Source: Fictibacillus terranigra (lineage in GTDB: Bacteria; Bacillota; Bacilli; Bacillales; Fictibacillaceae). From it: a DNA stretch of 64,000 nucleotides. This document shows positions 46,132-63,932 of the stretch, one piece after another (within the stretch, counting starts at the first letter, position 1; every line of letters begins with the position of its first letter). Below the pieces are notes generated by a model. It had not been told where the DNA came from and did no database searches. It was given only the letters and a program-made list of their open reading frames with translations. The translations under genes were made by a program, and so were the position numbers. The DNA lies in the NCBI RefSeq assembly GCF_030412265.1, contig NZ_JAUHLN010000001.1:434001-498000 (forward strand). Direction: 5' to 3'.

Positions 46132-47286
46132 ATGAAGATTGTGATCGCTCCCGATTCCTATAAAGGAAGCGTATCAGCGGTGGAGGCGGCAGAAGCTATT
46201 GAACGGGGGGTCAGGAATGCCGACCCTTCCATCCAAACGATCCTTGTTCCGGCGGCCGACGGTGGTGAAGGAACGCTGGACACATTGGTTTCAGCAACGG
46301 GAGGAAGGAAAAAAACAGTACGGGTAACGGGTCCGCTTCACAATGATCTGAATGCTGAATACGGCATTTTAGGAGATGAGAAGACATGTGTCATCGAGAT
46401 GGCTTCTGCCTCAGGCCTCTGTCTTGTTTCTCCTGAACACCTTAATCCGCTGACAGCGACGACATACGGTACAGGACAATTAATGAAACAGGCACTGGAT
46501 GACGGGTTTCGTTCCTTTGTGTTGGCCATAGGAGGCTCTGCTACAAATGACGGCGGAGCGGGAATGCTGCAGGCATTAGGTTTAAAGCTCCTGGATGAGA
46601 ACGGCAGCAGCATTCCATTCGGTGGCGGTGAGCTCCATAAAATAAAAAAAATAGATCTTTCCGGCTTCGATCAGCGGGTCAAAGAATGCTCTTTTCTCAT
46701 CGCCTCAGACGTGCAAAATCCGCTCGTCGGCAAGGAAGGCGCATCAGCCGTATTCGGCCCGCAAAAAGGGGCAACAGAAGAGATGGTGAAAATTCTCGAT
46801 GATAACCTTGTCCACTGGGCGGACCTGGTGGAGCAAGCGACAGGAGTCAGGCTTCACGATATGCCTGGTGCGGGAGCCGCAGGGGGCATCGGGGGTGCGT
46901 TTCAAGCGTTCTTTCCGGCACAGATGAAGCGGGGAGTGGATGTTGTCACCGAGTATGCCGGGCTGCCGCAGGCTTTGGACGGAGCCGACTTGGTCATCAC
47001 GGGTGAAGGAAGGGTCGATTACCAGACAGCTTCAGGAAAAACACCGATGGGGGTAGCGCAGCTGGCCAAAGAGAGTAATGTTCCAACCCTTATCCTTGCC
47101 GGATCCGTCGGAGAGGGTACAGAAGTTCTCTATCAATACGGAGTCATCAGTATCACAAGTATGATTCAGCAGCCATTAACACTCGGGGAGGCCATGAAGC
47201 GTGCGCCTCAATTGCTGGAGTATAGTGCAGAGCAGCTCGTAAGAACGTTTATTCAGCCAAACGGAAAGCGAGGGTCTAGACGATGA
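46132..47286 (+). CDS. garK: Glycerate 2-kinase (GarK/GlxK family)
   Basis: A 384-residue class I glycerate kinase with 'KIVIAPDSYKGSVSAVEAAEAIERGV' at the start, ADGGEGTLD near 42-50, 'LAIGGSATNDGGAGMLQALG' near 140 and GEGRVDYQTASGKTP near 300. It phosphorylates D-glycerate to 2-phosphoglycerate, the exit of sugar-diacid and KDG-type pathways to glycolysis. ATG 46132 is seven bases from AGGAGG; the adjacent ATG at 46129 is too close. It overlaps the next gene by four bases. Confidence 0.93.
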   Translation: MKIVIAPDSYKGSVSAVEAAEAIERGVRNADPSIQTILVPAADGGEGTLDTLVSATGGRKKTVRVTGPLHNDLNAEYGILGDEKTCVIEMASASGLCLVSPEHLNPLTATTYGTGQLMKQALDDGFRSFVLAIGGSATNDGGAGMLQALGLKLLDENGSSIPFGGGELHKIKKIDLSGFDQRVKECSFLIASDVQNPLVGKEGASAVFGPQKGATEEMVKILDDNLVHWADLVEQATGVRLHDMPGAGAAGGIGGAFQAFFPAQMKRGVDVVTEYAGLPQALDGADLVITGEGRVDYQTASGKTPMGVAQLAKESNVPTLILAGSVGEGTEVLYQYGVISITSMIQQPLTLGEAMKRAPQLLEYSAEQLVRTFIQPNGKRGSRR

Positions 47287-48413
47287 AGCTTAAACAAACG
47301 ATTGAAAGAGTGCCCGGCGGTCTCATGGTCGTGCCGTTATTGTTCGGTGCGCTGCTTAATACGATCGATCAGCTTCACCTTCCTCCTGTGATGAAATTTT
47401 TAGAGTCACTTGGTGTAGCAAAAACACCGGAAGGCTATTACGAGTTTTTGAGAATCGGCGGCTTCTCGCAGGAACTGTTTAAAGACAGTGCACTCGTACT
47501 GATCGCTCTGTTCCTTTTTTGTGCAGGAAGCCAGATGAATTTACGGGTTGGAGGAGCGGCTCTGAAAAAGGGAGTGCTCCTCGTTGTTTCCAAATATTTG
47601 ACGGGCCTCGTTATCGGTCTTCTGTTTGGCTGCTTTTTTAACCCGATGGACGGTCTCTTCGGGTTGTCCACAATGGCCATTATTGCTGCGATGACGAACG
47701 GAAACGGCGGAATGTATGCCGCGCTGACAGGCCAGTATGGAAATCGGTCCGACGTTGGGGCAGTAGCAGTTCTCTCCTTGAACGATGGCCCGTTTTTTAC
47801 GTTAATGTCATTGGGACTTCTGGGATCCAGCTTTCCGATCATCGCTTTCATTGCCGTTCTCTTGCCGATCGCGATCGGGATGATTCTCGGAAATTTGGAC
47901 GAAGATATTCGCGACTTTCTTAAAGCGGGAGAGATCCTGCCTGTTCCGTTCTTTGCCTTTGCTCTCGGAGCCGGTATGAACCTGGCTAGTTTCTTTAATC
48001 CTTCGGTCGTTACAGCGGGCCTTACGATCGGGGTCTTAACTACGGTTCTTACAGGATTCACAGGCATTCTCGTGTTTAAATTATTCAGGGAAAACAGCTA
48101 TATCGCACCGGTTTCTGAAGCTTCCACCGCCGGGAACGCCGCCGGCACGCCCGCTGCCATCGCCGCGGCAGCCTCCGTTGCAGCGGGATCTGGAATGATG
48201 AGTGCAGCAGAAGCACAGTCCTACAAGGAAATTGTCAACATAGCTACGGCACAGATCTCCATCGCCACGTTGACGACCGCTATTTTATGTCCGATCGCTG
48301 TCATTTTAATGGACAAGTATCAAAGAAGAAAAGGAATCAATGGCCGGCTGGAGAAGTTTGAATTGGAAAGCAGCTCCATCCAGAAGGAACGTGTTCCCCC
48401 GACCACAACCTGA
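47283..48413 (+). CDS. kdgT: 2-keto-3-deoxygluconate permease (KdgT family)
   Basis: A 376-residue membrane protein with about 10 helices. 'MKLKQTIERVPGGLMVVPLLFGALLNT', 'FKDSALVLIALFLFCAGSQMNLRVGG' and 'SEASTAGNAAGTPAAIAAAAS' are KdgT-family signatures. It imports 2-keto-3-deoxy-D-gluconate or a similar keto-deoxy acid with protons. It is coupled to garK by ATGA overlap and followed 28 bases later by larA. Confidence 0.88.
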   Translation: MKLKQTIERVPGGLMVVPLLFGALLNTIDQLHLPPVMKFLESLGVAKTPEGYYEFLRIGGFSQELFKDSALVLIALFLFCAGSQMNLRVGGAALKKGVLLVVSKYLTGLVIGLLFGCFFNPMDGLFGLSTMAIIAAMTNGNGGMYAALTGQYGNRSDVGAVAVLSLNDGPFFTLMSLGLLGSSFPIIAFIAVLLPIAIGMILGNLDEDIRDFLKAGEILPVPFFAFALGAGMNLASFFNPSVVTAGLTIGVLTTVLTGFTGILVFKLFRENSYIAPVSEASTAGNAAGTPAAIAAAASVAAGSGMMSAAEAQSYKEIVNIATAQISIATLTTAILCPIAVILMDKYQRRKGINGRLEKFELESSSIQKERVPPTTT

Positions 48414-48441
48414 TCAGCTTATTTAGAAGGAGAGAGCGTAA

Positions 48442-49728
48442 ATGGAAACGACCTTGTTATATGGAAAAGAAGGACTGAAGCTCCGTTTGCCTGAATCCGC
48501 TTTTATTGTGGAGCCAAACAACCTAGCTGGGCTTGAAGATGATGAACAGGCTCTGCTGGAATCATTGCGGAAACCAATCGGCACGCCGCCGCTGAAAGAA
48601 ATGGTCAAACCGACGGATCGGGTGGCGATTGTCATCAGTGACATTACAAGACCTACACCGAACGACAAGCTTGTTCCGCTGTTGATCAAGGAACTGGATC
48701 ACGTGCCGCTTCGGAATTTTGTCATCATTAACGGAACGGGCACCCACAGGGACCAGACGAGGGAAGAGTTCGTTCAGATGCTCGGCGAATGGGTCGTGGA
48801 CAATGTCAGGATCATCAATAACCAATGCCATGATAACGAATCCCTTGTGAATTTGGGAAGAAGCCGGTTCGGCTGTGATGTGTGTTTGAACAAGGAGTAT
48901 GTGGAGGCTGACTTCCGCATCGTTACCGGATTTATTGAACCACACTTTTTTGCCGGCTTTTCCGGCGGCCCTAAGGGAATCATGCCAGGCATTGCCGGAA
49001 TTGAGACCATCATGACGTTCCATAATGCGAGAATGATAGGAGATCCGCGTTCCACCTGGGGGAATATGGTGGATAATCCCGTTCAGGAGATGACCCGCGA
49101 GATCAATCAAATGTGCAAACCTCATTTCATGCTGAACGTGACCTTGAACCGGGAAAAAGAGATCACGAATGTGTTTGCCGGTGAATTGTATGAAGCCCAT
49201 GACAAAGGCTGCGCGTTTGTGAAAGAGCATGCCATGATTCAGTGCGAAGAACGGTTTGACGTCGTCATTACCTCAAATTCGGGTTATCCGCTTGACCAAA
49301 ATCTGTATCAGGCCGTCAAGGGGATGAGCGCCGCCCATAAGATCGTAAAAGAAGGGGGAACGATCATTATTGCTTCTGAGTGTTCAGACGGGCTGCCGGA
49401 TCACGGTAACTACTCAAAGATCTTTCAGTTTGCCCAAACACCTCAAGCTCTGCTTGATCTGATCAATGATCCGGAGTTTAAGATGTTCGATCAATGGCAG
49501 GTGCAAAAACAGGCGGTGACCCAGGTATGGGCGGATGTTTATGTATATTCAACACTCACAGATGAACAGGTGAGAGGAGCCATTCTTGAGCCCACTCATG
49601 ATATCGAGGGGACTCTTGAGGCGCTGAAAGAAAAGTACGGACCGGGCATGACGATTGCAGTATTGCCGCTAGGGCCCCTTACCATTCCTTATGTCGAAGA
49701 ACGGAGGGGTCACATTGCTGCACGCTAA
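48442..49728 (+). CDS. larA: Nickel-pincer-dependent LarA-family racemase/epimerase (first copy)
   Basis: A 428-residue LarA homologue. Catalytic and cofactor residues match L. plantarum LarA: His102 (GTGTHR), His168 (IEPHFFAGFSGG), Lys178 for the pincer nucleotide (GGPKGIMPG) and His194 (FHNARM). LarA interconverts D- and L-lactate by hydride transfer; homologues racemise other 2-hydroxy acids or epimerise aldonates. Here it follows garK and kdgT and precedes all three cofactor genes, so glycerate or a sugar acid is a likelier substrate than lactate (inference). SD AGAAGGAGAG precedes ATG 48442. Confidence 0.88.
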   Translation: METTLLYGKEGLKLRLPESAFIVEPNNLAGLEDDEQALLESLRKPIGTPPLKEMVKPTDRVAIVISDITRPTPNDKLVPLLIKELDHVPLRNFVIINGTGTHRDQTREEFVQMLGEWVVDNVRIINNQCHDNESLVNLGRSRFGCDVCLNKEYVEADFRIVTGFIEPHFFAGFSGGPKGIMPGIAGIETIMTFHNARMIGDPRSTWGNMVDNPVQEMTREINQMCKPHFMLNVTLNREKEITNVFAGELYEAHDKGCAFVKEHAMIQCEERFDVVITSNSGYPLDQNLYQAVKGMSAAHKIVKEGGTIIIASECSDGLPDHGNYSKIFQFAQTPQALLDLINDPEFKMFDQWQVQKQAVTQVWADVYVYSTLTDEQVRGAILEPTHDIEGTLEALKEKYGPGMTIAVLPLGPLTIPYVEERRGHIAAR

Positions 49729-50530
49729 GTTTGAGAGACTGGAAGAGATTTTACGTGAGATGAAGACGGTTGTTGTTGCTTTTTCAGGCGGGGTCGACAG
49801 TACCTTCCTGCTGAAGGTGGCCCTTGATACGCTTGGCAGGGACAACGTGCTGGCGGTGACCGCTGATAGCGAGACCTACCCTTTTGAAGAGCTGGAGGAG
49901 GCGAAACGGCTAGCATCCCTTCTCGGTGCCAGGCACCAGATCATTGAAACATCAGAACTGAGCATTCCAGGCTACTCCGAAAATACGTCCAACCGCTGTT
50001 ATTTTTGTAAAAAGAGCTTGTTTGAGCATCTCATACCGATCATGCAGGAGCACGGCTATGAAAACATGGTGTTTGGCCTTATTGCCGATGATATGGGAGA
50101 ACACCGGCCCGGCACAAAAGCAGCGAGGGAATATAACGTACGGGGTCCGATTCAGGAAGCGGATCTGTATAAGAGTGAAATCCGGGAGCTTTCTCAAGCC
50201 ATGGGTCTGCCTACGTGGGATAAGCCTTCTTTCGCGTGCCTCTCTTCACGGATTGCGTATGGCGAAGAGATCACCATTGAAAAGCTGCGGAAGATTGACC
50301 GTTCAGAACAGGCCATCCGCGCACTTGGCATCCGCCAGGTACGGGTGCGCACTCACGGGGATATGGCCCGGATTGAAGTGGAGCCCCAAGAGATGCCAAA
50401 GCTTCTTCATCATCATGAGGAAATCACCTCCAGGCTGCAGGAATTTGGCTATATGTACGTGACGATGGACCTTACCGGCTATAAGAGCGGAAGCATGAAC
50501 AAGGTCCTTGCCGAAGCAAAAACAACGTGA
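49715..50530 (+). CDS. larE: Pyridinium-3,5-bisthiocarboxylate synthase, sacrificial sulfur transferase LarE
   Basis: A 271-residue PP-loop ATP pyrophosphatase with [15 protein letters not shown] near 24-38 and the conserved '[12 protein letters not shown]' segment, whose Cys donates or carries the sulfur. It adenylates the carboxylates of the pincer precursor and turns them into thiocarboxylates. TTG 49715 follows GGAGGGG and overlaps the larA stop by 14 bases; an earlier frame start lacks SD. One GGTGCCAGGCACC palindrome lies within the gene. Confidence 0.92.
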
Positions 50531-50544
50531 GAGGGGCGGATCGG

Positions 50545-51240
50545 ATGAAAAAGTTTGAAGACTTGGGCTTCAGTAAAGTAGATCTGGATCGCGAGACGCG
50601 TACAGGCTATCCCGAGGTCATTTACGGAGAAGGGAAGACAGCGGGACAAATCGAGCAGATCATGGCGACGCTGATTGAAACCCATGGCAAGGTGATGGTT
50701 ACGAGGCTATCAGAAGAAAAGGCAGCTGTGTTAACGAAAGCTTATCCGGATGCACATTATCATGCGGTTTCACGGATTCTTCTATACGGTTCACCAAGGG
50801 ATAAATACGGCGGTGATGTAATGGTGCTATGTGCAGGCACATCAGATCTTCCTGTTGCCGAAGAGGCGGCAGTTACGGCGGATTGGATGGGCTGTAATGT
50901 AAACCGTCTGTATGATGTGGGTGTCGCAGGCATCGACCGTTTGCTTGCCTACCGTGAGGAAATCACAAAGGCCAGTGTGCTTATCGTCGTGGCCGGAATG
51001 GAAGGGGCATTGCCGAGTGTCGTAGGAGGCATGGTTCAGCGGCCCGTCATTGCGGTTCCGACTTCTGTCGGCTACGGGGCACATCTGCAAGGATTGACGC
51101 CGCTTCTCGCCATGCTCACTTCCTGTGCTTCAGGCATGAGCGTCGTAAATATTGATAACGGATTCGGGGCCGCCTACCAAGCGGCGCTGATTCTTAAACT
51201 TGCCACAGAGGGGGTCCAGCATGAAACAGCTCTATCTTGA
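50545..51240 (+). CDS. larB: Pyridinium-3,5-biscarboxylic acid mononucleotide synthase LarB
   Basis: A 231-residue protein whose C-terminal half resembles PurE ('[43 protein letters not shown]', '[31 protein letters not shown]'). LarB carboxylates and hydrolyses nicotinic acid adenine dinucleotide as the first step to the nickel-pincer cofactor. ATG 50545 follows GAGGGGCGG; a GTG at 50527 overlapping the larE stop is an alternative. Co-transcribed with larE and larC. Confidence 0.93.
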
Positions 51241-52159
51241 TTGCCAGTATGGGATATCGGGCGACATGACCTTGTCTGCGCTCATTGATTTAGGAGCAGA
51301 CCTTGCTTATATTACGGAGCATTTAAAAGAATTGCCGATCGATCCGTTTTCTATATCGGTGAAACGGGTCGATAAAAGAGGAATCTCCTCCAATCTGCTG
51401 GATCTTCAGTTCAGCGCGGCTGAATTGGTGGTGGCAGGTGTAAATGCAGATGCAGGACATCACCATGACCATGAAGAAGAAGGCCATTCCCACCATCATG
51501 CCCACTCTCATCAAGGGCATTCGCACAGCCAAGACCATTCTTCGCACAGCCACGGGCATTCGGACAGCGATGGGCATTCGCATGACCATGAGCATTCTTC
51601 GCACAGCCATGAACATTCGCATGACCATTTACATACCCATCATCACCACCACGAACATCGCAAAGCATCCACAATTTTAGAGATGATTCGAACGAGCGAT
51701 CTGCCTGCTAGGGTAAAAGACAGGAGTCAAAGGGTCTTTGAAGTGATCGCTGAGGCAGAAGGTAAAATTCACGGGATGGATCCAAAAGAGGTCCATTTCC
51801 ATGAAGTCGGGGCGATGGACTCCATCATTGATATTATTGGCGTCTGCCTGGCTCTTGAAAGTCTGGAGATTGATAGAATTACAGCCTCACCGGTGCCGAC
51901 AGGCCATGGGAAAGTCAAGATGGCTCACGGACTCTATCCGATTCCGGCTCCAGCAACTGCGGAAATCCTGAGAGGAGTTCCTCTTGAAGATTTTCATGTA
52001 AGAGGTGAATTAACGACGCCAACCGGGGCTGGCTTCCTAAAAGCTTTAGCGGATGATTATGGATACATGCCAGCGCGCGCCATCGACAGGATCGGCTACG
52101 GCGCCGGCCAGAAAGATTTTGAGCATCCGAATGTCCTTCGTGCTATTTTATTTGAATGA
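51221..52159 (+). CDS. larC: Nickel insertion protein LarC, N-terminal domain only, with His-rich insert
   Basis: A 312-residue protein. '[27 protein letters not shown]' and '[18 protein letters not shown]...[12 protein letters not shown]...[10 protein letters not shown]' identify LarC, the CTP-dependent cyclometallase that inserts Ni into the pincer nucleotide. Residues 80-146 are an insert with 32 His in 67 positions, probably a nickel store. The chain ends at '[11 protein letters not shown]', the border of the first domain; the C-terminal LarC2 domain (with the LETNLDD-type start) is missing and not found in another frame downstream, where 21-bp repeats begin. In L. plantarum the two parts are joined by programmed frameshifting. 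ATG 51221 follows GAGGGGG and overlaps larB. Confidence 0.88.
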
Positions 52160-52190
52160 TAGTTTACCTGATTTCGCTGATGGACGCCGT

Positions 52191-52687: not shown

Positions 52688-52809
52688 GTTTTATATTATA
52701 AAACAACCAAGGCATTGCACCCAGAGAAGAACGTCCAACGCACATTCTATTGAGGGAGCAATGCCTTTTCTTCGGAGAATAACGAAAACTTGGTTTTATA
52801 ATATAGAAC
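52688..52809 (+). promoter_or_regulatory. Two 17-bp palindromes flanking a hairpin in the TRAP operon leader
   Basis: GTTTTATATTATAAAAC (52688-52704, perfect around a central T) and GTTTTATAATATAGAAC (52793-52809, one mismatch) are 105 bp apart start to start, about ten helical turns. Between them AAGGCATTGC (52709-52718) pairs with GCAATGCCTT (52758-52767), which is followed by TTCTTC. The palindromes look like sites of an unknown repressor; the hairpin may be an attenuator or the trace of a small mobile sequence. Confidence 0.55.
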
Positions 52810-52867: not shown

Positions 52868-52895
52868 AAAAAACAAAAAAGGATGGGTGAGCTCC

Positions 52896-53921
52896 ATGAA
52901 ATTGAAGAAAGGTTTAGGGGTTATGATGGTCGCGGCATTATTATCATCTCTTTTGTTATCAGGCTGTGGAAGCCAGTCTTCATCTTCCTCCTCAGGAGAA
53001 AAGACAAAGACGATCAAAATCGCCAACTACTTTGCTAAAGATCATCCACAGAACGTAGCACTCAGGGAGAAGTTCAAGCCGATGGTGGAAAAGGAATCGG
53101 GCGGTACGCTGAAGGTTCAGATCTACGATAACAGCACGCTCGGGGCGGAAAAGGAATTTTACGACGGGGTGCGAAACGGCACGATTGAAATGGGGATACC
53201 GGGGCTGATCATGCAGGCCGATATTGAAAAAATGGCGGTGCCGGAGTGGCCGTTTCTTTTTAAGGACTATGAACATGTGAAGAAGGTGCTGAACGGGCCG
53301 ATCGGCAAGGAGCTAACAGAAGACATGGAAAAGAAGCATGGAGTAAAGCCCCTGGCATGGAGCGCAAATGGGTTCAGGATGTTTTCGAGCAACAAAGCCC
53401 TTCAGGACATGAACGATCTTAAAGGGCTTCGGATGAGGATGCCAAATATCCCTAACTATATCAAGCTAGGGAAGCTGCTGGGGATGAATGTGACGCCGAT
53501 GCCGATTTCTGAAGTGTTTTCTGCTCTCGAACAAAAGGTGGTGGATGGCCAGGATAACCCTGTGGCTACTTTACGGGCGTCCGGCTGGTATGAGGTTCAG
53601 AGCAATGTACTGGAATCCAAGCATATGTTTAGTCCGAACATCTACATCATTAACAGCAAATTTTTCAATGGACTGTCCAAAAAACAGCAAAAAGTCATTG
53701 AAAAAGCATCCAAATCCGCTGCTGACTATGAATTTGGCCTGATGGAAAAAAGTTATGATGCTGATAAAAAATTCTTGTCAGGCAAAAACGTGAAATTTAC
53801 AACACCTGATGCAGCGTTCGAAAAGAAAATGGAAGATGCGGCACAGCCGATGTACGACGAATTCTACAAGCAATATGACTGGGCCGAGGATCTCGTTAAA
53901 AGGATAAAAGCTGAACAATAA
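52896..53921 (+). CDS. dctP: TRAP transporter solute-binding lipoprotein (DctP family)
   Basis: A 341-residue DctP-type protein with a lipoprotein signal (LLSSLLLSGC, Cys near 24). The family signatures 'RMPNIPNYIKLGKLLGMNVTPMPISEVFSALEQKVVDGQDNP' include the conserved Arg that binds the ligand carboxylate. TRAP systems import organic-acid anions with sodium. ATG 52896 and an in-frame GTG at 52887 are both possible; spacing to GGGTGAG favours the ATG. It heads the dctPQM operon in a sugar-acid region, so aldonates or uronates are likely ligands (inference). Confidence 0.92.
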   Translation: MKLKKGLGVMMVAALLSSLLLSGCGSQSSSSSSGEKTKTIKIANYFAKDHPQNVALREKFKPMVEKESGGTLKVQIYDNSTLGAEKEFYDGVRNGTIEMGIPGLIMQADIEKMAVPEWPFLFKDYEHVKKVLNGPIGKELTEDMEKKHGVKPLAWSANGFRMFSSNKALQDMNDLKGLRMRMPNIPNYIKLGKLLGMNVTPMPISEVFSALEQKVVDGQDNPVATLRASGWYEVQSNVLESKHMFSPNIYIINSKFFNGLSKKQQKVIEKASKSAADYEFGLMEKSYDADKKFLSGKNVKFTTPDAAFEKKMEDAAQPMYDEFYKQYDWAEDLVKRIKAEQ

Positions 53922-53946
53922 GATCGGGATGAAAGGAGGGAAAAAG

Positions 53947-54501
53947 ATGGAAAAGGTCTCAAAGTACTTAGAACGACTGCTGAATATATTTATGGCCGCA
54001 GCATTGGGGATGATGGTCATTCTTGTATTTGGAAACGTTGTATTGCGCTACCTTTTTAACTCAGGGATTACATGGTCGGAGGAAATGTCGCGGTATTTGT
54101 TCATATGGCTCACATTCCTCGGTGCGATCGGTGCCTTTAAAAGCAAGGAGCACCTGGGGGTAGACATGCTGGTCAGGCGGTTGCCCAAGAGAGCAAAGAA
54201 AGTAGTACTCGTAATCAGTGATCTGCTCATGCTGTTTGTTCTCTTCCTTGTTCTTGAAGGCAGCTGGAAAATGACCATGATCAACATGGACAGCAAAGCG
54301 CCTGCTACTGGCCTGCCTCTTTCCTTTGTTTATGGGACCGGAATTCTGGTCAGTGTGGCGATGGGGCTGATCCTTATCAACAATCTATACAAAGTGCTAT
54401 CCAACAAGCTGGAGGAAAAAGATCTCATCCTGATCAGCGATTCAGAAGAATTGATAGATTTTCAGGAAAATGAACTTGGGAAGGAGGAGAAACAAGCATG
54501 A
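53947..54501 (+). CDS. dctQ: TRAP transporter small permease (DctQ)
   Basis: A 184-residue protein with four membrane helices and the DctQ pattern 'VVLRYLFNSGITWSEEMSRYLFIWLTFLGAIGAFK'. It links the binding protein to the large permease. ATG 53947 follows AAAGGAGGG. The C-terminus is extended and acidic. The start of dctM overlaps its stop. Confidence 0.92.
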   Translation: MEKVSKYLERLLNIFMAAALGMMVILVFGNVVLRYLFNSGITWSEEMSRYLFIWLTFLGAIGAFKSKEHLGVDMLVRRLPKRAKKVVLVISDLLMLFVLFLVLEGSWKMTMINMDSKAPATGLPLSFVYGTGILVSVAMGLILINNLYKVLSNKLEEKDLILISDSEELIDFQENELGKEEKQA

Positions 54502-55772: not shown

Positions 55773-55791
55773 TTAATAAGGAGTGAAAGTT

Positions 55792-56817
55792 ATGAGCAAG
55801 TTTAAAGTGGTAGTCACAGACTGGGAATATGATGATCTGCGGTATGAAGAAGCCGTTTTTCATCTCTATCCCGAAATTGAACTGGTTGCGGCACAATGCC
55901 GGACAGAAGAAGAGGTCATCGAGGCGTGCCGGGATGCGGACGCACTGGTGAATCAGTACGCTCCCATCAGCAAGCAGGTCATAGAGAAGCTGGAAAAGTG
56001 CAAAGTGATCACGCGTTACGGTGTCGGTGTAAACACGATTGATCTGGATGCTGCGACTGCAAAGGGAATCTGTGTCGCCAATGTCCCGGATTATTGTATG
56101 GACGAAGTGGCGGACCATGCGCTGGCTCTTCTGCTTTCTGCCAAACGAAAAGTCGTGGCCGCTAACCAAAACGTGAAGAAGGGTCTGTGGGATTTTAAAG
56201 TCACCCAGCCGATCCACCGTCTTCGCGGCCAGGTGCTCGGGCTTGTAGGCTTTGGCAAGATTCCGCAAAGCCTTGCTGAGAAGGCCAAGCCTCTCGGGTT
56301 TAAAGTGGTGGCTTTTGATCCGTATTTTTCAAAAGAAGATGCGCTGAAAAAAGGGGTCGAACTCGTCAGCCTTGAGGAGCTATGCCGTATATCAGACGTC
56401 ATTTCCGTACACGCTCCGTTAATGGATGGAACGAGAGGGATGATCAATGCCTCACTGTTTTCCGTGATGAAAGACACCGCTCTTCTCATCAACACTTCCA
56501 GGGGGCCGGTCGTGGATGAACAAGCCTTAATCGATGCATTGGAATCAGGAAAAATCGGAGGTGCGGCTCTGGACGTGATCGAAGAAGAACCCATCTCTGC
56601 CGGCCACCCGTTCCTCTCCATGGAAAACGTCATTTTAACACCGCATGTCGCGTGGTATTCCGAGGAGGCAGCAAAAGAGATGAGGACGAAAGCGGCGCTG
56701 GGAGCCGTCGATGTGCTGATGTGCAAGGAATATCCGAAGTATCTCGTCAACGTTCAAGTGAAAGAGCAATCACACCTTAAGTCCAGTCAGCCGGAAAGCC
56801 GTTATGTGATGAGTTAG
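55792..56817 (+). CDS. D-isomer-specific 2-hydroxyacid dehydrogenase (CtBP-like)
   Basis: A 341-residue NAD-dependent dehydrogenase. The nucleotide loop reads G-L-V-G-F-G-K-I-P (150-158) rather than the textbook GxGxxG ending in G, with Asp176 indicating NAD. Catalytic residues are Arg237 (NTSRG), Glu266 (VIEEEP) and His285 (TPHVAW). It interconverts a 2-hydroxy acid and its 2-keto acid, possibly glycerate/hydroxypyruvate or a longer sugar acid. ATG 55792 follows AAGGAGTGAAAG; the in-frame GTG at 55783 is too close to the SD. It lies within the TRAP/LarA operon. Confidence 0.88.
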   Translation: MSKFKVVVTDWEYDDLRYEEAVFHLYPEIELVAAQCRTEEEVIEACRDADALVNQYAPISKQVIEKLEKCKVITRYGVGVNTIDLDAATAKGICVANVPDYCMDEVADHALALLLSAKRKVVAANQNVKKGLWDFKVTQPIHRLRGQVLGLVGFGKIPQSLAEKAKPLGFKVVAFDPYFSKEDALKKGVELVSLEELCRISDVISVHAPLMDGTRGMINASLFSVMKDTALLINTSRGPVVDEQALIDALESGKIGGAALDVIEEEPISAGHPFLSMENVILTPHVAWYSEEAAKEMRTKAALGAVDVLMCKEYPKYLVNVQVKEQSHLKSSQPESRYVMS

Positions 56818-56843: not shown

Positions 56844-57896
56844 ATGAATCATTGGGTGAAAAAGCTGGCATTGGGGATCGTCCTTCCAGGGATGCTGGTT
56901 CTTGGAGGCTGCGGCGCCAGCAAGTCTGGAGGATCCGCTTCAGGATCAGGAAAGAGTGGAATTCAACAACGAACGATCAAAGCAGGAATCGGGTTGAATG
57001 AAGACCATCCTGAAGGACAGGGAATGATCAAGTTCAAAGAGCTGGTGGAGAAGAAGAGCGGCGGGAAAATGAAAGTCCAAAACTTCTTCAGTGCCACTCT
57101 TGGTGATGATCAGAAGATGACAGAAGCACTGCAGGGCGGGCTTCAGGAGGTGACGGTTCCTTCTACATCTCCTCTTGTTGGAATGATCAAGGAATACGGT
57201 ATTTTTGATTTTCCTTTCGTCTTCAATACCGAGGAAGAGGCTTATGCGGTACTGGACGGAAAAGTGGGACAGGAGCTTTTGAAGAAACTGCCTGAGCACA
57301 ATCTGATAGGACTCGGATATTGGGAGAACGGCTTCCGTAACCTGACGAACAGTAAACATCCAGTAAAAACGGCGGAAGATTTTAAAGGGCTGAAGATCAG
57401 AACGATGCAAAACGAGGTTCATCTGGATGCCTTTAAAAAGCTGGGGGCCAATCCTTCACCGATGGCTTTTTCAGAAGTATTTACCGCTTTGGAAGGGAAA
57501 ACGGTAGATGGCCAGGAAAACCCGCTCGCAACCATTAAATCAAGCAAATACGATGAAGTTCAGTCTTACTTAAGCATGACAAAGCACGTCTACACGCCGT
57601 TTGTTTTTCTCGTCAGCAAAAAATTCTGGGACGGGCTTTCTGAAGAAGAGCAGAAGATTATGAAAGATTCCGCGGTGGAAGCCGGTAAATACCAGCGCGA
57701 CTTAAACCGCAAAGAAAATGAAAAAGCGCTGAAGGATCTTGAAAAGGCAGGCATGAAGGTCAATGAAGTATCTGATGCGGAAAAAGAAAAGATGAAAGAG
57801 ATCATCAAGCCGGTGACCGATAAATACGCCAAGAAGTTTGGAGAAGACCTGGTCAATCAAATGATGGATGAAGTAGATAAAGCAAGAAACCAATAA
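56844..57896 (+). CDS. Second TRAP solute-binding lipoprotein (DctP family), orphan
   Basis: A 350-residue DctP-type lipoprotein with lipobox LVLGGC (Cys near 23) and 'KTAEDFKGLKIRTMQNEVHLDAFKKLGANPSPMAFSEVFTALEGKTVDGQENP', including the ligand Arg. It is clearly different from the first binding protein (52896). No second DctQ/DctM pair is present, so it may share the membrane subunits and widen the substrate range, or act as a ligand sensor. SD AAGGGGGAAA precedes ATG 56844. Confidence 0.9.
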   Translation: MNHWVKKLALGIVLPGMLVLGGCGASKSGGSASGSGKSGIQQRTIKAGIGLNEDHPEGQGMIKFKELVEKKSGGKMKVQNFFSATLGDDQKMTEALQGGLQEVTVPSTSPLVGMIKEYGIFDFPFVFNTEEEAYAVLDGKVGQELLKKLPEHNLIGLGYWENGFRNLTNSKHPVKTAEDFKGLKIRTMQNEVHLDAFKKLGANPSPMAFSEVFTALEGKTVDGQENPLATIKSSKYDEVQSYLSMTKHVYTPFVFLVSKKFWDGLSEEEQKIMKDSAVEAGKYQRDLNRKENEKALKDLEKAGMKVNEVSDAEKEKMKEIIKPVTDKYAKKFGEDLVNQMMDEVDKARNQ

Positions 57897-57925
57897 AGAG
57901 AAGCACCATTTGAGGAGGAAGATGG

Positions 57926-59188
57926 ATGGAAATCATATCACAGCTTCTTCATGACATACCCCTTCCAAAAATGTTGAGAGTTAAGCAGGTCTTCCATGCT
58001 CCAATGCTTGAGGACACAGCAGAGGAGGTTCGGAAAACCCTTAAGGATACCGGCCTTTTATCCAGAGTATCTCCTGGAGACCGGGTGGCCATTGCGGTTG
58101 GAAGCCGGGGGGTCGCCGACCTTCCTATCCTGGTCAGGGAAACTGCAGCTGCTGTTGAATCAGCCGGAGGGTCGCCTTTCATCGTTCCTGCCATGGGAAG
58201 CCATGGCGGAGCGACGGCAGAAGGCCAGCGGGAGGTGCTGGAACAGCTTGGTGTTACTGAGGCATCCGTGGGTGCGCCCATCCTTTCGAGCATGGAGGTC
58301 GTGCAGACTGGCATGCTGCCAAACGGCCTTCCGGTGTATACCGATAAACATGCGTATGAAGCGGATAAGGTCATCGTTATTAACCGGATCAAGCCGCATA
58401 CCGCGTTTCGCGGTCCTGTCGAGAGCGGATTGATGAAGATGATTACGATCGGCCTTGGAAAGCAAAAAGGAGCAGAAGCTGCCCATGCCTACAGTTTTAA
58501 ACACATGGCCGAGCATGTTCCGGAGATGGCTAAGATCGTTCTCTCCAAGGTTCCAATTATTTTTGGACTGGGATCCATTGAGAACGCTTATGACCGGCCG
58601 GCCAAAATCGTGGCGGTTCCGGCAGAAGAACTGGAACAGAGAGAGCCTGGCCTTCTGCTGGAAGCGAAGCAGCTTATGCCAAAAATCATGTTTGATCCGA
58701 TCGATGTGCTGATCGTCGACGAGATCGGAAAAGATATTTCGGGCGACGGAATGGACCCGAACATTACAGGCAGGTATGCTACCCCGTATGCGTTTGGCGG
58801 GCCTAAAGTGTCACGGATTGCCGTACTCGGCCTGACCGGGAAGACACATGGAAACGCAAACGGAATCGGCATGGCGGACATGACGACAAGGGCATTGGTT
58901 GACAGCATCCATTGGGAAAAAGGGTATGCCAACGCCTTGACGAGTACGGTCACCGACGTCATCAGAGTGCCGATGGTTCTCGAAAGTGAGGAAATGGCTG
59001 TTAAAGCGGCGATCAAAACCTGCAATGCGTACGATCTTACAAAAGCCAGGGTCGTCCGAATAAAAAATACACTGGAGTTGGAGCATATCTGGATCTCGGA
59101 AAGCCTGATGGAGGAAGCGGCGGGACAAAAGGAAATCGAAGTGCTGTCCGAACCGGCAGCCATTCATTTAGCTGGCGAAAAAGGGTGA
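57926..59188 (+). CDS. Second, divergent LarA-family (Lar_N/DUF2088) protein
   Basis: A 420-residue LarA homologue of another branch. It keeps His93 (MGSHGGAT), His158 (RIKPHTAF), lysines at 171, 179 and 181 in 'GLMKMITIGLGKQKGA' for the pincer nucleotide and His187. The N-terminal 'KMLRVKQVFHAPMLEDTAEEV' and the central DEIGKDISGDGMDPN are unlike the first LarA (48442). Characterised LarA homologues include malate racemases and a gluconate 2-epimerase. Placed between an orphan TRAP binding protein and aldonate dehydratases, it may epimerise C2 of an aldonate (inference). ATG 57926 follows GAGGAGGAAG. Confidence 0.8.
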   Translation: MEIISQLLHDIPLPKMLRVKQVFHAPMLEDTAEEVRKTLKDTGLLSRVSPGDRVAIAVGSRGVADLPILVRETAAAVESAGGSPFIVPAMGSHGGATAEGQREVLEQLGVTEASVGAPILSSMEVVQTGMLPNGLPVYTDKHAYEADKVIVINRIKPHTAFRGPVESGLMKMITIGLGKQKGAEAAHAYSFKHMAEHVPEMAKIVLSKVPIIFGLGSIENAYDRPAKIVAVPAEELEQREPGLLLEAKQLMPKIMFDPIDVLIVDEIGKDISGDGMDPNITGRYATPYAFGGPKVSRIAVLGLTGKTHGNANGIGMADMTTRALVDSIHWEKGYANALTSTVTDVIRVPMVLESEEMAVKAAIKTCNAYDLTKARVVRIKNTLELEHIWISESLMEEAAGQKEIEVLSEPAAIHLAGEKG

Positions 59189-60531
59189 TATTACTCGCTG
59201 TTTACAGCATGATGGTTCTTTCCTATACGGTGAACCTGTTTTTGGACAGCATCATGCTTGATGAAGTGACGGGGATCCTTGCCCTGCTTTCTCTTATTCT
59301 TTCCTTTCCGAAGGCATCAGGCTTGTACAAAACCACCGGCACGGTTTTCATGGTGATCGGCTTCTCTCTGTATCTCTATTTGCAGAAGCCGCTGCTTGAG
59401 CTTCCGCATTACATGAATTCAACGGTGGTCCTGCTCGTGATCTTCTATGTTCTTCCTTTTATCAACAGCATTATCATCGTCGGGCGGTACGATAAGAGTG
59501 TCAATAAACTGCTCAAGCGGCGCGCCGGCCATCTTGGGCAGCTCTATTACAGAAGCTCTCTTGCCAGTTTTCTGCTCGGCTCTTTTTTAAATATAGCGAC
59601 CATTCCGCTCGTAGAATCGGTGCTGCGCCGCAATCTACATAAGGTGGAAGACCGTGTACGAGATCTTTTCATCAGCCGGGCGATGCTCAGGGGATATGCC
59701 CTTTGCCTGGCATGGAGCCCGATGGAAATCCTGGTGGCGATCAGTGTGGATATCACACACTCTGACTATGTTCGCTTGCTGCCGTGGCTTTTCTTGTTTT
59801 CTATGATTCTCTTAATGATTGACTGGCTGATTGGCCTGCGCTACCGGAGATACAGGATTGAGCAGTCTGCCGCGATGGAGGATGTGCCGCTTGATCCGGG
59901 AACACTCAATAAAGCAGCCATCCTTCTTGTGTATCTGAGTGTGTTTATCATCACTGTAATTGCAGCCAAAAGGTGGCTCGAAGTAAATTTTCTCATGTCC
60001 GTTGCCCTTGTCATCATCCCGTATTCGATTATCTGGGCGCTGCTCATTAAGAGGATTAAATCGTTTGGTTCTTATAGTTTAAGAGAATGGCGGAGGAGAG
60101 CCGGTTCGCAGCAAAATTATATGGTTCTGTTTTTGGCCGCCGGTTTTATGATAAGTACGCTGAAAGAAACATCCTTCTTGGACTATTTGCAGCAGCCGTT
60201 TGCTTCTGTTCAGCATGTGCCCTTTTATCTGTTTCTGATGATTCAGGTCATCTTTCTGGGGCTTGCCATGATTGGGTTTCATCCGCTCGTAACGATCAGC
60301 ATTCTCGGTGAAGTCATTCAGCCTCTGCTGGGGCAGATCAATCCGCTTAGCTTTGCGATCGTCCTGATCTCTTCCGGTCTTTCCACCGTTATGGCAGGAC
60401 CTTATAACATTACCGTTTCGTTAACTGGAAGTTTGCTGCATCAGAATCCATACCGCATTTCATTCTGGAACATTGGCTTTGCCTTTCTATACAGCAGTGC
60501 AGGAACCATCATCGCCCTGCTGCTCTTGTGA
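59185..60531 (+). CDS. Polytopic membrane protein of unknown family (putative transporter)
   Basis: A 448-residue protein with 11-12 predicted helices. The C-terminal half 'GFHPLVTISILGEVIQPL' and 'SSGLSTVMAGPYNITVSLTGSLL' recalls the repeat layout of ion-transporter-superfamily carboxylate porters, with a charged middle loop (about 225-250, RYRRYRIEQSAAMED). I do not recognise the family. Its GTG overlaps the stop of the LarA-like gene (GTGA) and its own stop overlaps the region before dgoD, so it belongs to the operon; export or import of a sugar acid is a guess. Confidence 0.7.
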   Translation: MILLAVYSMMVLSYTVNLFLDSIMLDEVTGILALLSLILSFPKASGLYKTTGTVFMVIGFSLYLYLQKPLLELPHYMNSTVVLLVIFYVLPFINSIIIVGRYDKSVNKLLKRRAGHLGQLYYRSSLASFLLGSFLNIATIPLVESVLRRNLHKVEDRVRDLFISRAMLRGYALCLAWSPMEILVAISVDITHSDYVRLLPWLFLFSMILLMIDWLIGLRYRRYRIEQSAAMEDVPLDPGTLNKAAILLVYLSVFIITVIAAKRWLEVNFLMSVALVIIPYSIIWALLIKRIKSFGSYSLREWRRRAGSQQNYMVLFLAAGFMISTLKETSFLDYLQQPFASVQHVPFYLFLMIQVIFLGLAMIGFHPLVTISILGEVIQPLLGQINPLSFAIVLISSGLSTVMAGPYNITVSLTGSLLHQNPYRISFWNIGFAFLYSSAGTIIALLLL

Positions 60532-60566
60532 AATGGAAATGTGGCATTGCCAAAAAAGGAGGCCAA

Positions 60567-61718
60567 ATGACAAAGATCACGGGTTTTCAGCTCTTTAAAG
60601 TAGCTCCCCGGTGGCTGTTTTTAAAAATTGAAACAGACGAAGGCATCTCGGGATGGGGAGAACCGATTGTAGAAGGCAAAGCGAGTACAGTGGAAACATG
60701 TGTGAATGAACTGAGCCACTATTTTTTAGGAAAGGATCCGCGCTGTATAGAGGATCATTGGCAGGTCATGTACCGCGGGGGATTCTATCGGGGAGGGCCG
60801 GTTTTTATGAGTGCCATCTCCGGAATCGAGCAGGCGTTATGGGACATCAAGGGCAAATTATATAATATGCCTGTTTATGAAATGCTGGGAGGCAAGGCCC
60901 GTGAAAAGATCAGAGTGTATTCATGGATCGGCGGTGACAGGCCGAGTGATGTCGCGGCTGAAGCAAAAATAAAATCAGAGCAGGGCTTCACCGCTGTAAA
61001 AATGAATGCAACAGAAGAAATGGACTATATTGATTCTTTTTCAAAGGTTGAAGACGCCATTAACCGAATAGGGGCCGTCCGTGATGCAGTAGGGAAGGAT
61101 TTTGGAATCGGGATTGACTTTCATGGGAGAGTCCACAAGTCTATGGCTAAGATTCTGGCCAAAGAACTGGAGCCCTACCGTCCGATGTTTATTGAAGAGC
61201 CGGTGCTGCCTGAAAACAACGAAGCATTGAGGGAAATTGCCAGATACACTACCGTTCCTATCGCGACAGGAGAGAGGCAGTACACAAGATGGGGGTTCAA
61301 GCAGCTGCTGGCAGACGGATATGTTGACATCATTCAGCCAGACCTTTCCCATGCCGGCGGTATTCTGGAATGTAAAAAGATAGCAGCCATGGCTGAAGCA
61401 TACGACGTTTCGGTTGCTCCTCATTGTCCGCTTGGGCCTATTGCATTGGCTTCTTCATTACAGCTCGATGCCTGTACGCCTAACGCGATCATTCAGGAGC
61501 AGAGCCTCGGCATTCATTACAACGAGGGCAGCGATTTACTGGATTATCTTGTGGATGCCTCTGATTTTAAATACGACGAGGGTTTTGTCGAGATTCCTCA
61601 AGGAGCCGGCCTTGGCATTGAAGTAAATGAGGAACGTGTGAAAGAGGCTTCTGAACGGGGCCATGAGTGGAGAAATCCTGTATGGAGAAATACAGACGGC
61701 AGTGTAGCTGAGTGGTAA
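60567..61718 (+). CDS. dgoD: D-galactonate dehydratase (enolase superfamily)
   Basis: A 383-residue enzyme very close to E. coli DgoD. Metal ligands Asp184, Glu210 and Glu236 and catalytic His186 (DFHGRVH) and His286 (APHCPLGPIALA) are at E. coli positions plus one. The N-terminal PRWLFLKIETDEGISGWGEP and the C-terminal WRNPVWRNTDGSVAEW also match. It dehydrates D-galactonate to 2-keto-3-deoxy-D-galactonate. ATG 60567 follows AAAAGGAGG; the longer frame from 60528 overlaps the membrane protein. Confidence 0.93.
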   Translation: MTKITGFQLFKVAPRWLFLKIETDEGISGWGEPIVEGKASTVETCVNELSHYFLGKDPRCIEDHWQVMYRGGFYRGGPVFMSAISGIEQALWDIKGKLYNMPVYEMLGGKAREKIRVYSWIGGDRPSDVAAEAKIKSEQGFTAVKMNATEEMDYIDSFSKVEDAINRIGAVRDAVGKDFGIGIDFHGRVHKSMAKILAKELEPYRPMFIEEPVLPENNEALREIARYTTVPIATGERQYTRWGFKQLLADGYVDIIQPDLSHAGGILECKKIAAMAEAYDVSVAPHCPLGPIALASSLQLDACTPNAIIQEQSLGIHYNEGSDLLDYLVDASDFKYDEGFVEIPQGAGLGIEVNEERVKEASERGHEWRNPVWRNTDGSVAEW

Positions 61719-61742
61719 AAGAAAAAGAGGCGGTGAAAGAAC

Positions 61743-63932
61743 ATGGAGTACCCCTATATTCAGAACACCTATAACCCGTATCGTGACAATGTTCAGGGAA
61801 AGGCCAATGAACCGATCTGTGTCGCTGGCCTCCTGGACCGGTCAAAGCAGATCGTCGGACACGCCTACGAAGGAGAAGCGCCGGATTGGACACTGGAGGA
61901 GATCTACAATCGGCTTCATGAGAATGCGCCGAGGATCGCTATCATCGGAGGTTCGCCTGACCATCCGGCACATATCATGGATTTTCAGACGTCTGCCAGA
62001 GCTGCTTTGCGGATATGGCAGAACGGCGGTGTTCCCTTTTATTTCTCAACGCCTGTCATGTGTGATGGGACAGCTCAAAGCAACCAGGGGATGAGCTATT
62101 CGCTTCAAAGCAGAAACGCGGTGGCGGAAATGGTGGTGAATCAGATCGAAGCTCATAGTTATCATGGCGCTTTCGTCATTCAAGGCTGTGATAAACAGCC
62201 TCTTGGCGTTGTAAGCGCCCTGGCTCATCTGGACCGCGTCCGCAATTACAGGGGGGAGGCACCTTTTTTTGCGACATTCGCACCAGCACACGTCTTGCAG
62301 GGAGGTACCATTCCTGCAGATTTATTCGAAGAGCTTGAGGCCGTAGCGAAAGCTGCAGAAGACGGAGGTGCTGAGGATATTGCCTTTGATCTTCGCGATG
62401 CCATGGCCTACATCCTTCAATGCTCTTCCAACACTGCTTTTCAGGGGGTGCTGCAGCGGGCAAAAGAAAGAGGATTCATCACCCAGGCCGCACATGATGA
62501 CTATGAAAAACGCCTTGCAGTCAATACGTGTGACGGGCTTGGCGGTGTATGCGCCTTTAATGGAACAGGCAACAGTTCCCGTCATCTGGTAGCGGGAATG
62601 GGGCTCGTCCATCCTGAACTGGAGCTCCTTACGGATCCGCCAGCACAGGAGCAGATCAATAAGGCACTCGATTCACTGTCTGTCATGATTAATCAGCCGG
62701 CCTTTGGCGTTTCGAATATCATGGCGTCAAATATCAAGAATGCGATCCGGATCCACAGCGCTTCAGGAGGATCGACCAACTTGATGATGCATATAGTGGC
62801 GGGCATGCTGTATGGCGGCTACACGTTCAGCCTTCATGAACTCGACCGCATTCATCATGAGGTGCCGGTGCCCGATTTGTTCGATTACAGTTTGACCCAG
62901 GGCAGGGATATTTTTGCCTTGGCCATGCAGTGCTGCTCAGGCAACAGCCGGGGCATGGAGTCACTGTTTTATGAACTGATCCAGAACGGAGTTCCGATGG
63001 ATGTGGATGCACCGACCGTAACCGGAACAAGCTGGCGGGACCGGCTGGAGAAGGATGGAAAGAGTCCCATCGAAAGGATTGCACAGAACCCCGTCATCCT
63101 TTCAAAGCCGAGGCGGCCATACAGTGGAGTGGATGTACTGACGGGGAATTTTTTCGAGAGTGCTGTCGTGAAAATCAGCGGGATGACCACCCGGCAGCTT
63201 GATGAGTTTGATAAGAAGGCAGCCTTTGTCCTTTATTATGAAAATGAAGAGGATGCGAATGAAGGCTTGCTTGATGCCAATCTGTTGGAGAAGCTGAAAA
63301 ATGATCGTCAGTTCTCTCAAAAGAATCTTCTTGCGGCTCTGAAGCAGAATGCGCCCGAACAGTATTCGGCGTATGCTGAACTTGCCTATGACCCGTTGTT
63401 CGAGGCGATGGTGGAGGAAAGTATTCTAAAAATAGCCGTAGTGGTATCGGGGCAAGGACCTGCAGCGTTTGGCATGCCTGAAATGTTTACCCCGATGCAG
63501 CATATCAATGCCAGCCGTAAGCTGAAAAAACTGGCCACTCTCATCAGTGATGGACGCTATTCAGGCGTAACGTACGGAGCGGCTGTCGGCCACATGACGC
63601 CTGAAGCGAAGGAAGACGGCGGGATTCTCTACCTTCAGACAGGTGATGTTTTGTTCCTTGATTTTAGGGAGCGTTCGATTCAGTTCATGGAAGAAGATTC
63701 TTTTCAAAAAGGCGAGCAGGTCTTTGCGTTTGATCATATACGGCAGCAGCGGAAAGCCCTGGCAGAAAGACGGATGAAGACGATCCGCAAGCGTCAGCGG
63801 TCGGTGGCAGCGAGCAACCGTTTGACCAGCCATACCGATGCGGCGCACGGAGTTGTCCCGCTGCAAGTGTTTGAAGAAGCTGATCTCGATTATAGAAAAG
63901 ATATCGCTTCCCTGAAATTGGCTGAACGTTAA
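61743..63932 (+). CDS. IlvD/Edd-family aldonate dehydratase (YjhG/YagF-type D-xylonate dehydratase)
   Basis: A 729-residue Fe-S dehydratase. Cluster and metal-site segments are VMCDGTAQSNQG near 105, QGCDKQPLG near 150, NTCDGLGGVC near 260 and 'SASGGSTNLMMHIVAGM' near 345; the C-terminal GRYSGVTYGAAVGHMTPEA completes the site. The wording fits the YjhG/YagF branch (about 655 residues), with a longer C-terminal tail here. It removes water from D-xylonate or a similar aldonate to give a 2-keto-3-deoxy acid. GAGGCGG precedes ATG 61743. It follows dgoD in the same operon. Confidence 0.88.
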   Translation: MEYPYIQNTYNPYRDNVQGKANEPICVAGLLDRSKQIVGHAYEGEAPDWTLEEIYNRLHENAPRIAIIGGSPDHPAHIMDFQTSARAALRIWQNGGVPFYFSTPVMCDGTAQSNQGMSYSLQSRNAVAEMVVNQIEAHSYHGAFVIQGCDKQPLGVVSALAHLDRVRNYRGEAPFFATFAPAHVLQGGTIPADLFEELEAVAKAAEDGGAEDIAFDLRDAMAYILQCSSNTAFQGVLQRAKERGFITQAAHDDYEKRLAVNTCDGLGGVCAFNGTGNSSRHLVAGMGLVHPELELLTDPPAQEQINKALDSLSVMINQPAFGVSNIMASNIKNAIRIHSASGGSTNLMMHIVAGMLYGGYTFSLHELDRIHHEVPVPDLFDYSLTQGRDIFALAMQCCSGNSRGMESLFYELIQNGVPMDVDAPTVTGTSWRDRLEKDGKSPIERIAQNPVILSKPRRPYSGVDVLTGNFFESAVVKISGMTTRQLDEFDKKAAFVLYYENEEDANEGLLDANLLEKLKNDRQFSQKNLLAALKQNAPEQYSAYAELAYDPLFEAMVEESILKIAVVVSGQGPAAFGMPEMFTPMQHINASRKLKKLATLISDGRYSGVTYGAAVGHMTPEAKEDGGILYLQTGDVLFLDFRERSIQFMEEDSFQKGEQVFAFDHIRQQRKALAERRMKTIRKRQRSVAASNRLTSHTDAAHGVVPLQVFEEADLDYRKDIASLKLAER

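Follow-up and report, generated by a model that had tools for sequence, protein, structure and literature searches.

We analyzed a 64,000-nt stretch of the Fictibacillus terranigra genome (GCF_030412265.1, contig NZ_JAUHLN010000001.1, positions 434,001-498,000 of the forward strand), called the window here, which carries genes for two proteins of the nickel-pincer LarA family among genes for the transport and metabolism of sugar acids. All genes of this region lie on the + strand between ~46.1 and 63.9 kb and were identified at the family level, by comparing profile scores with model cut-offs; the genes named in the original prediction, made from the sequence of the window, were all present and in the order given there. 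That prediction described one system ending at position 63,932, in which both LarA proteins epimerize C2, of glycerate and of aldonates, to feed two dehydratases. Contig DNA fetched 3´ of the window revealed, however, that the gene run goes on for another ~10 kb, and a shared operator sequence was found only with the second part of the region, so that we describe it as two modules instead of one system.

The first module opens with a gene for glycerate kinase (46132..47286, +; TIGR00045, 483 bits, cut-off 168). Its open reading frame (ORF) begins at 46093, and the likely start is at 46132, as had been predicted, since the TIGR00045 match runs from residue 15 of the long ORF. The kinase gene is followed by genes for a KdgT-family sugar-acid permease (47283..48413, +; PF03812, 291 bits, cut-off 25; kdgT equivalog, 167 bits, below the cut-off of 453.8) and for a LarA of the LAR group, the proposed glycerate racemase (48442..49728, +; NF033504, 547.9 bits, cut-off 460), which scored lower on the MAR and LarAH10 models than on NF033504, the LAR model. 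Divergent from the module is a gene for a CdaR-like regulator with Diacid_rec and PucR helix-turn-helix domains (44879..46009, -; PF05651, 160 bits; PF13556, 75 bits; CdaR equivalog, 161 bits, below the cut-off of 612). We also noted urease-like genes just upstream (UreB- and UreC-like as read from translations, window positions 41956-44039), which place a second nickel enzyme near the nickel-pincer genes.

Genes for making the nickel-pincer cofactor follow larA. The LarE sulfur transferase (49691..50530, +; TIGR00268, 366 bits, cut-off 150) and LarB (50527..51240, +; NF033503, 297 bits, cut-off 175) of the predicted larE-larB-larC set scored above their cut-offs, but the larC gene (51221..52159, +; TIGR00299, 224 bits, cut-off 90) encodes LarC1, the N-terminal part only of the nickel insertase, corresponding to positions 1-234 of 375 in PF01969. 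The remaining positions, 238-375, are found in a separate gene, LarC2 (L003:11522-12004, contig 507522-508004, -; NF052512, 140 bits, cut-off 50; L003 coordinates plus 62000 are window coordinates), which lies outside the window, 21 kb downstream of LarC1 and on the opposite strand. Both parts of the LarC profile are therefore present, as two genes. In 80 loci examined, LarC1 and LarC2 were separated by 4.7-11.8 kb in eight Bacillaceae loci (L048, L051, L054, L055, L063, L074, L076 and L077) and by 0.9 kb in L061, and adjoined each other in L039 and L105. A LarC match was detected in 165 of 299 genomes in a sample of the phylum and, among the matches listed, most were one full-length frame and a few ended at ~235-245. 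A two-gene LarC as such is not new, as larC1 and larC2 are already in print in Lactobacillus and Anaerobutyricum papers. The Anaerobutyricum genes have consecutive locus numbers, however, whereas the halves here are far apart and on opposite strands, an arrangement not mentioned in the available portions of PMC7583248, PMC11770544, PMC11796402, PMC12611868, PMC7702098 and PMC3496567. LarC would work here as two separately encoded proteins.

The second module starts with genes for a TRAP importer, consisting of the binding protein DctP 1 (52887..53921, +; PF03480, 264 bits; TIGR00787, 208 bits, cut-off 175), the small permease DctQ (53929..54501, +; PF04290, 122 bits) and the YiaN-like large permease DctM (54498..55772, +; PF06808, 446 bits; YiaN equivalog, 568 bits, below the cut-off of 800). 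Between these and the gene for a second binding protein, DctP 2 (56844..57896, +; PF03480, 330 bits), is a D-2-hydroxyacid dehydrogenase gene (55783..56817, +; PF02826, 203 bits; no NCBIfam cut-off reached), whose product is possibly a 2-ketoaldonate or hydroxypyruvate reductase. The next gene encodes the second LarA-family protein, LarAH22 (57926..59188, +), a member of LarAH group 22 (NF052515, 567.3 bits, cut-off 400) and the proposed aldonate C2-epimerase. It is followed by a gene for a membrane protein (59185..60531, +), the unknown porter of the original prediction, which indeed matched no family over cut-off; its relatives occur near TRAP genes at several other, Oceanobacillus-type loci. 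Downstream is the gene for DgoD, the D-galactonate dehydratase of the enolase superfamily (60528..61718, +; PRK14017, 679 bits, cut-off 311; closest solved chain 3rr1, 519 bits), an assignment that we regard as sure on these scores. The last gene in the window (61743..63932, +; PF00920, 117 bits; PF24877, 94 bits) encodes a divergent 729-aa protein predicted to be an aldonate dehydratase. Its membership in the IlvD/Edd family held, but the protein fell below every NCBIfam cut-off and can be named only at the family level, with a function as sugar-acid dehydratase suggested by context.

The genes past the window are given here in L003 coordinates. A 320-aa protein that only marginally matches the U32 peptidase family (1951-2913; 23.1 bits, cut-off 22.4) is followed by a PfkB kinase, kdgK (2901-3839; KDG/KDGal kinase model, 248, below 400), an Eda-family aldolase (3820-4533; TIGR01182, 191, cut-off 156) and an IclR-type regulator (4602-5381; KdgR model, 211, below 275). 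Next is FAH1 (5463-6365), for which the closest solved chain by far is 2q18, a 2-keto-3-deoxy-D-arabinonate dehydratase (245 bits, 9e-72; next best 81 bits, 1e-21), and which at the family level is probably a KdaD-like 2-keto-3-deoxypentonate dehydratase. A SAF protein (6835-7137) and a GarD-type GD_AH protein (7121-8299; sole NCBIfam match the galactarate dehydratase model, 253 bits, below 731) could together form a two-piece UxaA/GarD-type dehydratase. The UxaA/GarD family includes a D-arabinonate dehydratase, FAH-type ketodeoxypentonate dehydratases have been shown, and a heteromeric L-fuconate dehydratase of the UxaA/GarD family has been mentioned as unpublished (PMC6336799). The run ends with a ketoglutarate-semialdehyde dehydrogenase (KGSADH; 8423-9889; NF042993, GucD, 891 bits, cut-off 770), FAH2 (9965-10855; FAH family), a NicO-like membrane protein (10880-11506; NicO, 26.3 bits, below 27.7; DsbD_2, 29.8 bits, cut-off 24.9) and LarC2. 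The two dehydratases of the original prediction, DgoD and the IlvD/Edd protein, are present, but it missed the third, UxaA/GarD-type dehydratase outside the window, and also the pentonate core. Between fah1 and the SAF gene, we observed the remnant of a decayed short-chain dehydrogenase (SDR) gene (6405-6776, equivalent to window positions 68405-68776; read from the translation). We considered whether an intact SDR gene could supply a Route III enzyme, and rejected this since only the remnant is present, which was not seen in the five relatives looked at.

We then compared the cluster across the genus and found LarAH22 in six of the seven genomes searched, including that of F. terranigra, with 95% identity for the protein of G401, probably the genome of Fictibacillus sp. 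FJAT-27399. In the fetched stretches of the other five genomes, the order TRAP, hydroxyacid dehydrogenase, dctP2, lar22, porter, IlvD/Edd, U32, IclR, FAH1, GarD, KGSADH, FAH2, NicO-like and LarC2 is kept, indicating that the arrangement is not due to chance, and LarC2 adjoins the NicO-like gene in 6/6 genomes. The stretches from G000, G401, G399 and G403 contain glxK, kdgT, larA, larE and larB, while those from G402 and G398 end before reaching these genes. By tblastn of the fetched stretches, dgoD, kdgK and eda were detected in the clusters of G000, G401 and G402 and not in those of G398, G399 and G403. Galactonate is therefore not the core substrate; its genes appear to be a variable addition, and the kept core of KdaD-like FAH enzyme and KGSADH points to C5 acids. 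A related gene set is also kept in Anaerobacillus (L038) and Brevibacillus (L039), with LarAH22 proteins of 68% identity; in the stretches covered, L038 is without dgoD, kdgK and eda and L039 without kdgK and eda. The U32-like protein, for which there is no solved relative, is encoded downstream of the IlvD/Edd gene in 8/8 clusters (own, five of the genus, L038 and L039). In one genus genome, a second group-22 LarA (L124, G398:C3; 47% identity) is accompanied by GarD-type and 2-hydroxyacid dehydrogenase genes.

The TRAP genes are preceded by two copies of the palindrome GTTTTATAWTATARAAC, GTTTTATATTATAAAAC at 52688..52704 and GTTTTATAATATAGAAC at 52793..52809. The operator pattern was derived from both of these copies, so its rarity in shuffled sequence (0.02 expected) is no independent test. 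With at most one mismatch, the pattern was detected at only two further places in the genome, contig position 501431, before fah1 (start 501463), and contig position 315441, for a total of four places, three of which are in this cluster; the control, with the pattern reversed, matched once on each strand. Independent evidence for the operator comes from these further places and from the related genomes. The first copy is kept before the TRAP operon in 5/5 other genus clusters, in all of which the TRAP and fah1 copies recur with 0 or 1 mismatch. In Anaerobacillus, the operator is found before lar22 (two mismatches) and fah1 (one mismatch), and Brevibacillus has 3-mismatch matches before dctP1 and fah1. 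The same genome scan revealed no operator before the glycerate kinase operon at one mismatch. As operators precede the TRAP-lar22 and fah1 genes but not the first module, lar22 and fah1 appear to belong to a single regulon that excludes that module, with the GTTTTATAWTATAAAAC operators probably bound by the IclR-type protein. The fourth place precedes two ORFs of a major facilitator superfamily (MFS) transporter of the D-galactonate-transporter family and a GhrB-like gene, both below cut-off; the MFS gene, directly after the operator, appears as these two ORFs (L212:5041-6386, contig 314041-315386).

LarAH22 was examined for the residues expected of a LarA-family enzyme. Since a PDB profile search with LarAH22 gave one chance match only, its residues were mapped by profile alignment (hhalign) to LAR proteins. 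R61, H93, H158, K171 and H187, all invariant in 41 aligned LarAH22 sequences, align with the LAR counterparts of LarA residues R75, H108, H174, K184 and H200, with gaps before R61 and K171. After the second histidine, LarAH22 has T159-A160 rather than the E and V/S of GntE and hexonate groups 18-20. Close kinship with putative hexonate group 18 was considered and rejected on the hhalign E value of 0.021, and the group-18 model NF052594 gave no match to LarAH22 at 0.001. LarAH22 was the sole Lar_N match in 27 of 33 genomes searched (33 of 51 loci taken in; at the 0.001 threshold, the search may have overlooked more distant members). Of these 27, 22 had larB, larE or larC matches in the fetched locus (counted by hand). 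Taken together, these counts suggest that LarAH22 is probably the user of the nickel-pincer cofactor. Group 22 is common in Bacillota, with matches above the family cut-off in 85 of 398 genomes, and NCBIfam names the family only as 'isomerase, group 22'. Thirteen homologs were assayed in PMC7583248, none of them from group 22; Table S1 of that paper gives the gene contexts of all 25 groups and so may already include that of group 22.

To define the contexts of the two enzymes, same-strand neighbors up to 6 kb from the LarA-family gene were counted at 70 LarAH22 loci (with L039, whose ORF was not retained when ORFs were picked, and L037, of the same genus, left out) and at 52 LAR-type loci of Bacillota genomes (53 fetched; L148, where no LarA was recovered, and loci of the window's genus left out; three, L180-L182, score below the NF033504 cut-off). 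These counts ignore kinship between genomes, and each neighbor cluster is named from one member. Aldonate genes, meaning at least one relative of dgoD, the garD type, eda, kdgK, IlvD/Edd, gluconokinase or fah1, were found near LarAH22 at 55/70 loci as compared to 2/52 for LAR-type LarA. Conversely, a lactate permease or EtfA was near LarAH22 at 1/70 loci and near LAR-type LarA at 12/52. The aldonate association was seen at 43/49 close relatives and at 12/21 of the other LarAH22 loci, 20 of which were picked among high scorers and one of which is the second copy in the window's genus. Sequence and context thus support LarAH22 as a putative aldonate C2-epimerase.

For the first LarA, alignment to LarA structures (chain 8ezf; residue numbering from PMC7583248) indicated that D72, R75, H108, H174, K184, H200 and K298 are all kept. 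At the specificity sites 175, 176, 358 and 359, this LarA has F, F, W and Q, the last replacing T359. The usual set for the LAR group, whose enzymes act on lactate and glycerate, is F, F, W and E or Q; LarAH43, which has Q359, has a kcat/KM of 1.1e5 on glycerate and 0.8e5 on L-lactate, with its role in vivo left open (PMC11770544). Among the 52 LAR-type loci, neighbors of the lactate permease or EtfA/EtfB type were present at 11/23 loci with E359, 1/23 with Q359, 0/4 with C and 0/2 with T (E versus Q, Fisher p 0.0017, kinship uncorrected; E 11/21, Q 1/23, p 0.0005 without L180-L182), indicating that the Q type is seldom tied to lactate oxidation. With an FAD-oxidase neighbor as the marker instead, the counts were 13/23 for E, 3/23 for Q and 1/2 for T. 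Q359 as a marker of glycerate kinase neighbors was rejected. Similarly, KdgT was dropped as a glycerate permease, as 12/25 KdgT loci adjoin GarD-type genes and 1/25 adjoins a LarA other than the one in the window. In line with the original prediction, profile scans of the window proteins found no lactate genes in the larA operon. The F, F, W, Q signature, the adjoining glycerate kinase, permease and CdaR-like regulator, and the lack of lactate genes make a glycerate enzyme the best reading of LarA.

The glycerate kinase of the class found here acts on D-glycerate and, in E. coli, glycerate is the signal to which CdaR responds. By established stereochemistry, the four D-pentonates, which have C4 in common and vary only at C2 and C3, all yield the same ketodeoxypentonate on C2-C3 dehydration, so that a C2-epimerase would let each dehydratase drain two acids instead of one. 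We propose, with confidence a little above even, that a glycerate racemase and an aldonate C2-epimerase serve two modules with one cofactor supply and a Weimberg-type pentonate route. In the first module, the KdgT-family permease would import a small sugar acid, LarA would interconvert L- and D-glycerate, the glycerate kinase would phosphorylate the D form, and the CdaR-like regulator would probably sense glycerate. In the second, the TRAP importer would take up aldonates, and LarAH22, if it does carry out such epimerization here, would invert C2, with ribonate to arabinonate, lyxonate to xylonate and talonate to galactonate as candidate pairs. Three stereospecific dehydratases (IlvD/Edd-type, two-gene UxaA/GarD-type and DgoD) would then yield 2-keto-3-deoxy acids, of which the C5 products would be converted to 2-oxoglutarate by the KdaD-like FAH enzyme followed by KGSADH, and the C6 products would pass via the PfkB kinase and the Eda-family aldolase. 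The substrates, the transport specificities and the operon limits in this scheme are all provisional assignments. The original prediction, C2 epimerization of glycerate and of aldonates by the LarA proteins, is partly supported, by sequence and context, and appears right in kind for both enzymes. A bolder form of the proposal, which we put forward tentatively and consider rather less than probable, is that LarAH22 defines an aldonate C2-epimerase family and brings a nickel-pincer enzyme into a Weimberg-type pathway for the first time, draining all four D-pentonates into one ketodeoxypentonate and supplied by a far-apart two-protein LarC.

Several observations weigh against the proposal of a glycerate racemase and an aldonate C2-epimerase. 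By hhalign, LarAH22 is only remotely related to LAR (E 1.3e-6) and more remotely still to group 18, which is itself nearer LAR (1.7e-15). LarA D72 faces a gap in LarAH22, and the alignment stops before K298, with R283 nearby conserved at ≥90%. The 70 loci are neither random nor independent, 49 being close relatives found by sequence, many from Gracilibacillus and Oceanobacillus, and gene context failed to predict activity in several cases (PMC7583248). The divergence of the IlvD/Edd protein precludes a specific name (best NCBIfam score 186 bits), the GarD-like protein, PfkB kinase and IclR regulator are below functional cut-offs, and so is the NicO match. A scan limited to proteins of the cluster found no aldose dehydrogenase or lactonase; the sugar acids may be imported ready-made. 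For LarA, Q359 occurs at 23/52 LAR-type loci in many contexts, with a glycerate kinase near 1/52 (0/52 at a stricter setting), and the closest relatives outside the genus (L160, L162 and L163; 64-68%) have E359, without lactate permease or Etf genes. One neighbor of L160 (which, like L163, encodes a LarA relative at 67-68% with E359) has Diacid_rec and chemoreceptor signaling domains.

LarAH22 might instead act on hexonates only (talonate/galactonate or mannonate/gluconate), with the pentonate genes a separate branch under a shared regulator, a rather unlikely alternative. The commonest neighbor of LarAH22 is gluconokinase (38/70), a C6 enzyme that is the partner in most of the Bacillaceae, which also counts against our proposal; SDR genes are near 47/70 and eda near 7/70, with gluconokinase and SDR mainly in Gracilibacillus, Oceanobacillus and their kin, and in the window DgoD is encoded two genes after LarAH22. 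However, the three of six genus clusters without DgoD, kdgK and eda keep LarAH22 along with IlvD/Edd, FAH1, GarD-like and KGSADH genes, and the operators link LarAH22 with the pentonate genes. We consider it improbable that LarA (48442-49728) is an ordinary lactate racemase with unrelated neighbors. It passes the NF033504 cut-off (548 over 460), LAR-group enzymes use lactate as well as glycerate (PMC11770544) and the E359 of its closest extra-genus relatives fits this alternative, but LarA sits next to a glycerate kinase, a sugar-acid permease and a regulator of the diacid type and not next to lactate genes, and lactate permease or Etf genes are at only one of 23 Q359 loci. More improbable still is that LarAH22 acts on aldarates or uronate-derived acids (e.g. 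glucarate), feeding the GarD-like enzyme and KGSADH; galactarate dehydratase is the sole NCBIfam match of the GD_AH protein and KGSADH serves aldarate routes too (PMC6336799), but that match is far below its cut-off, FAH1 most resembles a ketodeoxypentonate dehydratase and no 5-keto-4-deoxyglucarate dehydratase was found among the cluster proteins scanned. There is similarly little chance that LarAH22 uses the cofactor for a hydride-transfer reaction other than C2 inversion. In its favor, the profile alignment gives no counterpart of D72 and no certain one of K298, and groups without catalytic residues have been suggested to do other reactions (PMC7583248), but the catalytic histidine positions H93 and H158, as well as R61, K171 and H187, do not vary in the 41 sequences.

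Parts of the proposed scheme resemble known systems. The LarAH22-SDR-gluconokinase arrangement is like what we take to be an SDR-GntE-gluconokinase cassette in T. maritima. The available portion of PMC3750489 did not confirm that cassette. Racemization of glycerate and C2-epimerization of gluconate by LarA-family enzymes have been published (PMC7583248; PMC11770544). LarA shares the family (LAR group, NF033504), catalytic residues and Q at the T359 position with LarAH43, for which glycerate racemization was shown (PMC11770544), but here adjoins a glycerate kinase and a CdaR-like regulator. The GntE D-gluconate 2-epimerases (LarAH groups 19 and 20) are like LarAH22 in the proposed type of reaction and in their sugar-acid context, though group 22 is a different, distant group with T-A instead of E-V/S after the second histidine. 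A UxaA/GarD-type dehydratase, a FAH-type ketodeoxypentonate dehydratase and KGSADH are common to this cluster and the non-phosphorylative, Weimberg-type Route II of Herbaspirillum huttiense (PMC6336799). The cluster here further includes a member of the nickel-pincer family, a TRAP importer and more dehydratases, and its SAF and GD_AH parts are encoded by separate genes.

We view the finding as known chemistry in a new variant context, together with a list of substrates for the unassigned group 22. The distant LarC halves provide a chance to test action in trans, and the context of the first module offers a physiological role for glycerate racemization. Many groups of the LarA superfamily are without a known substrate, and the contexts described here narrow group 22 to a short list of aldonate pairs.

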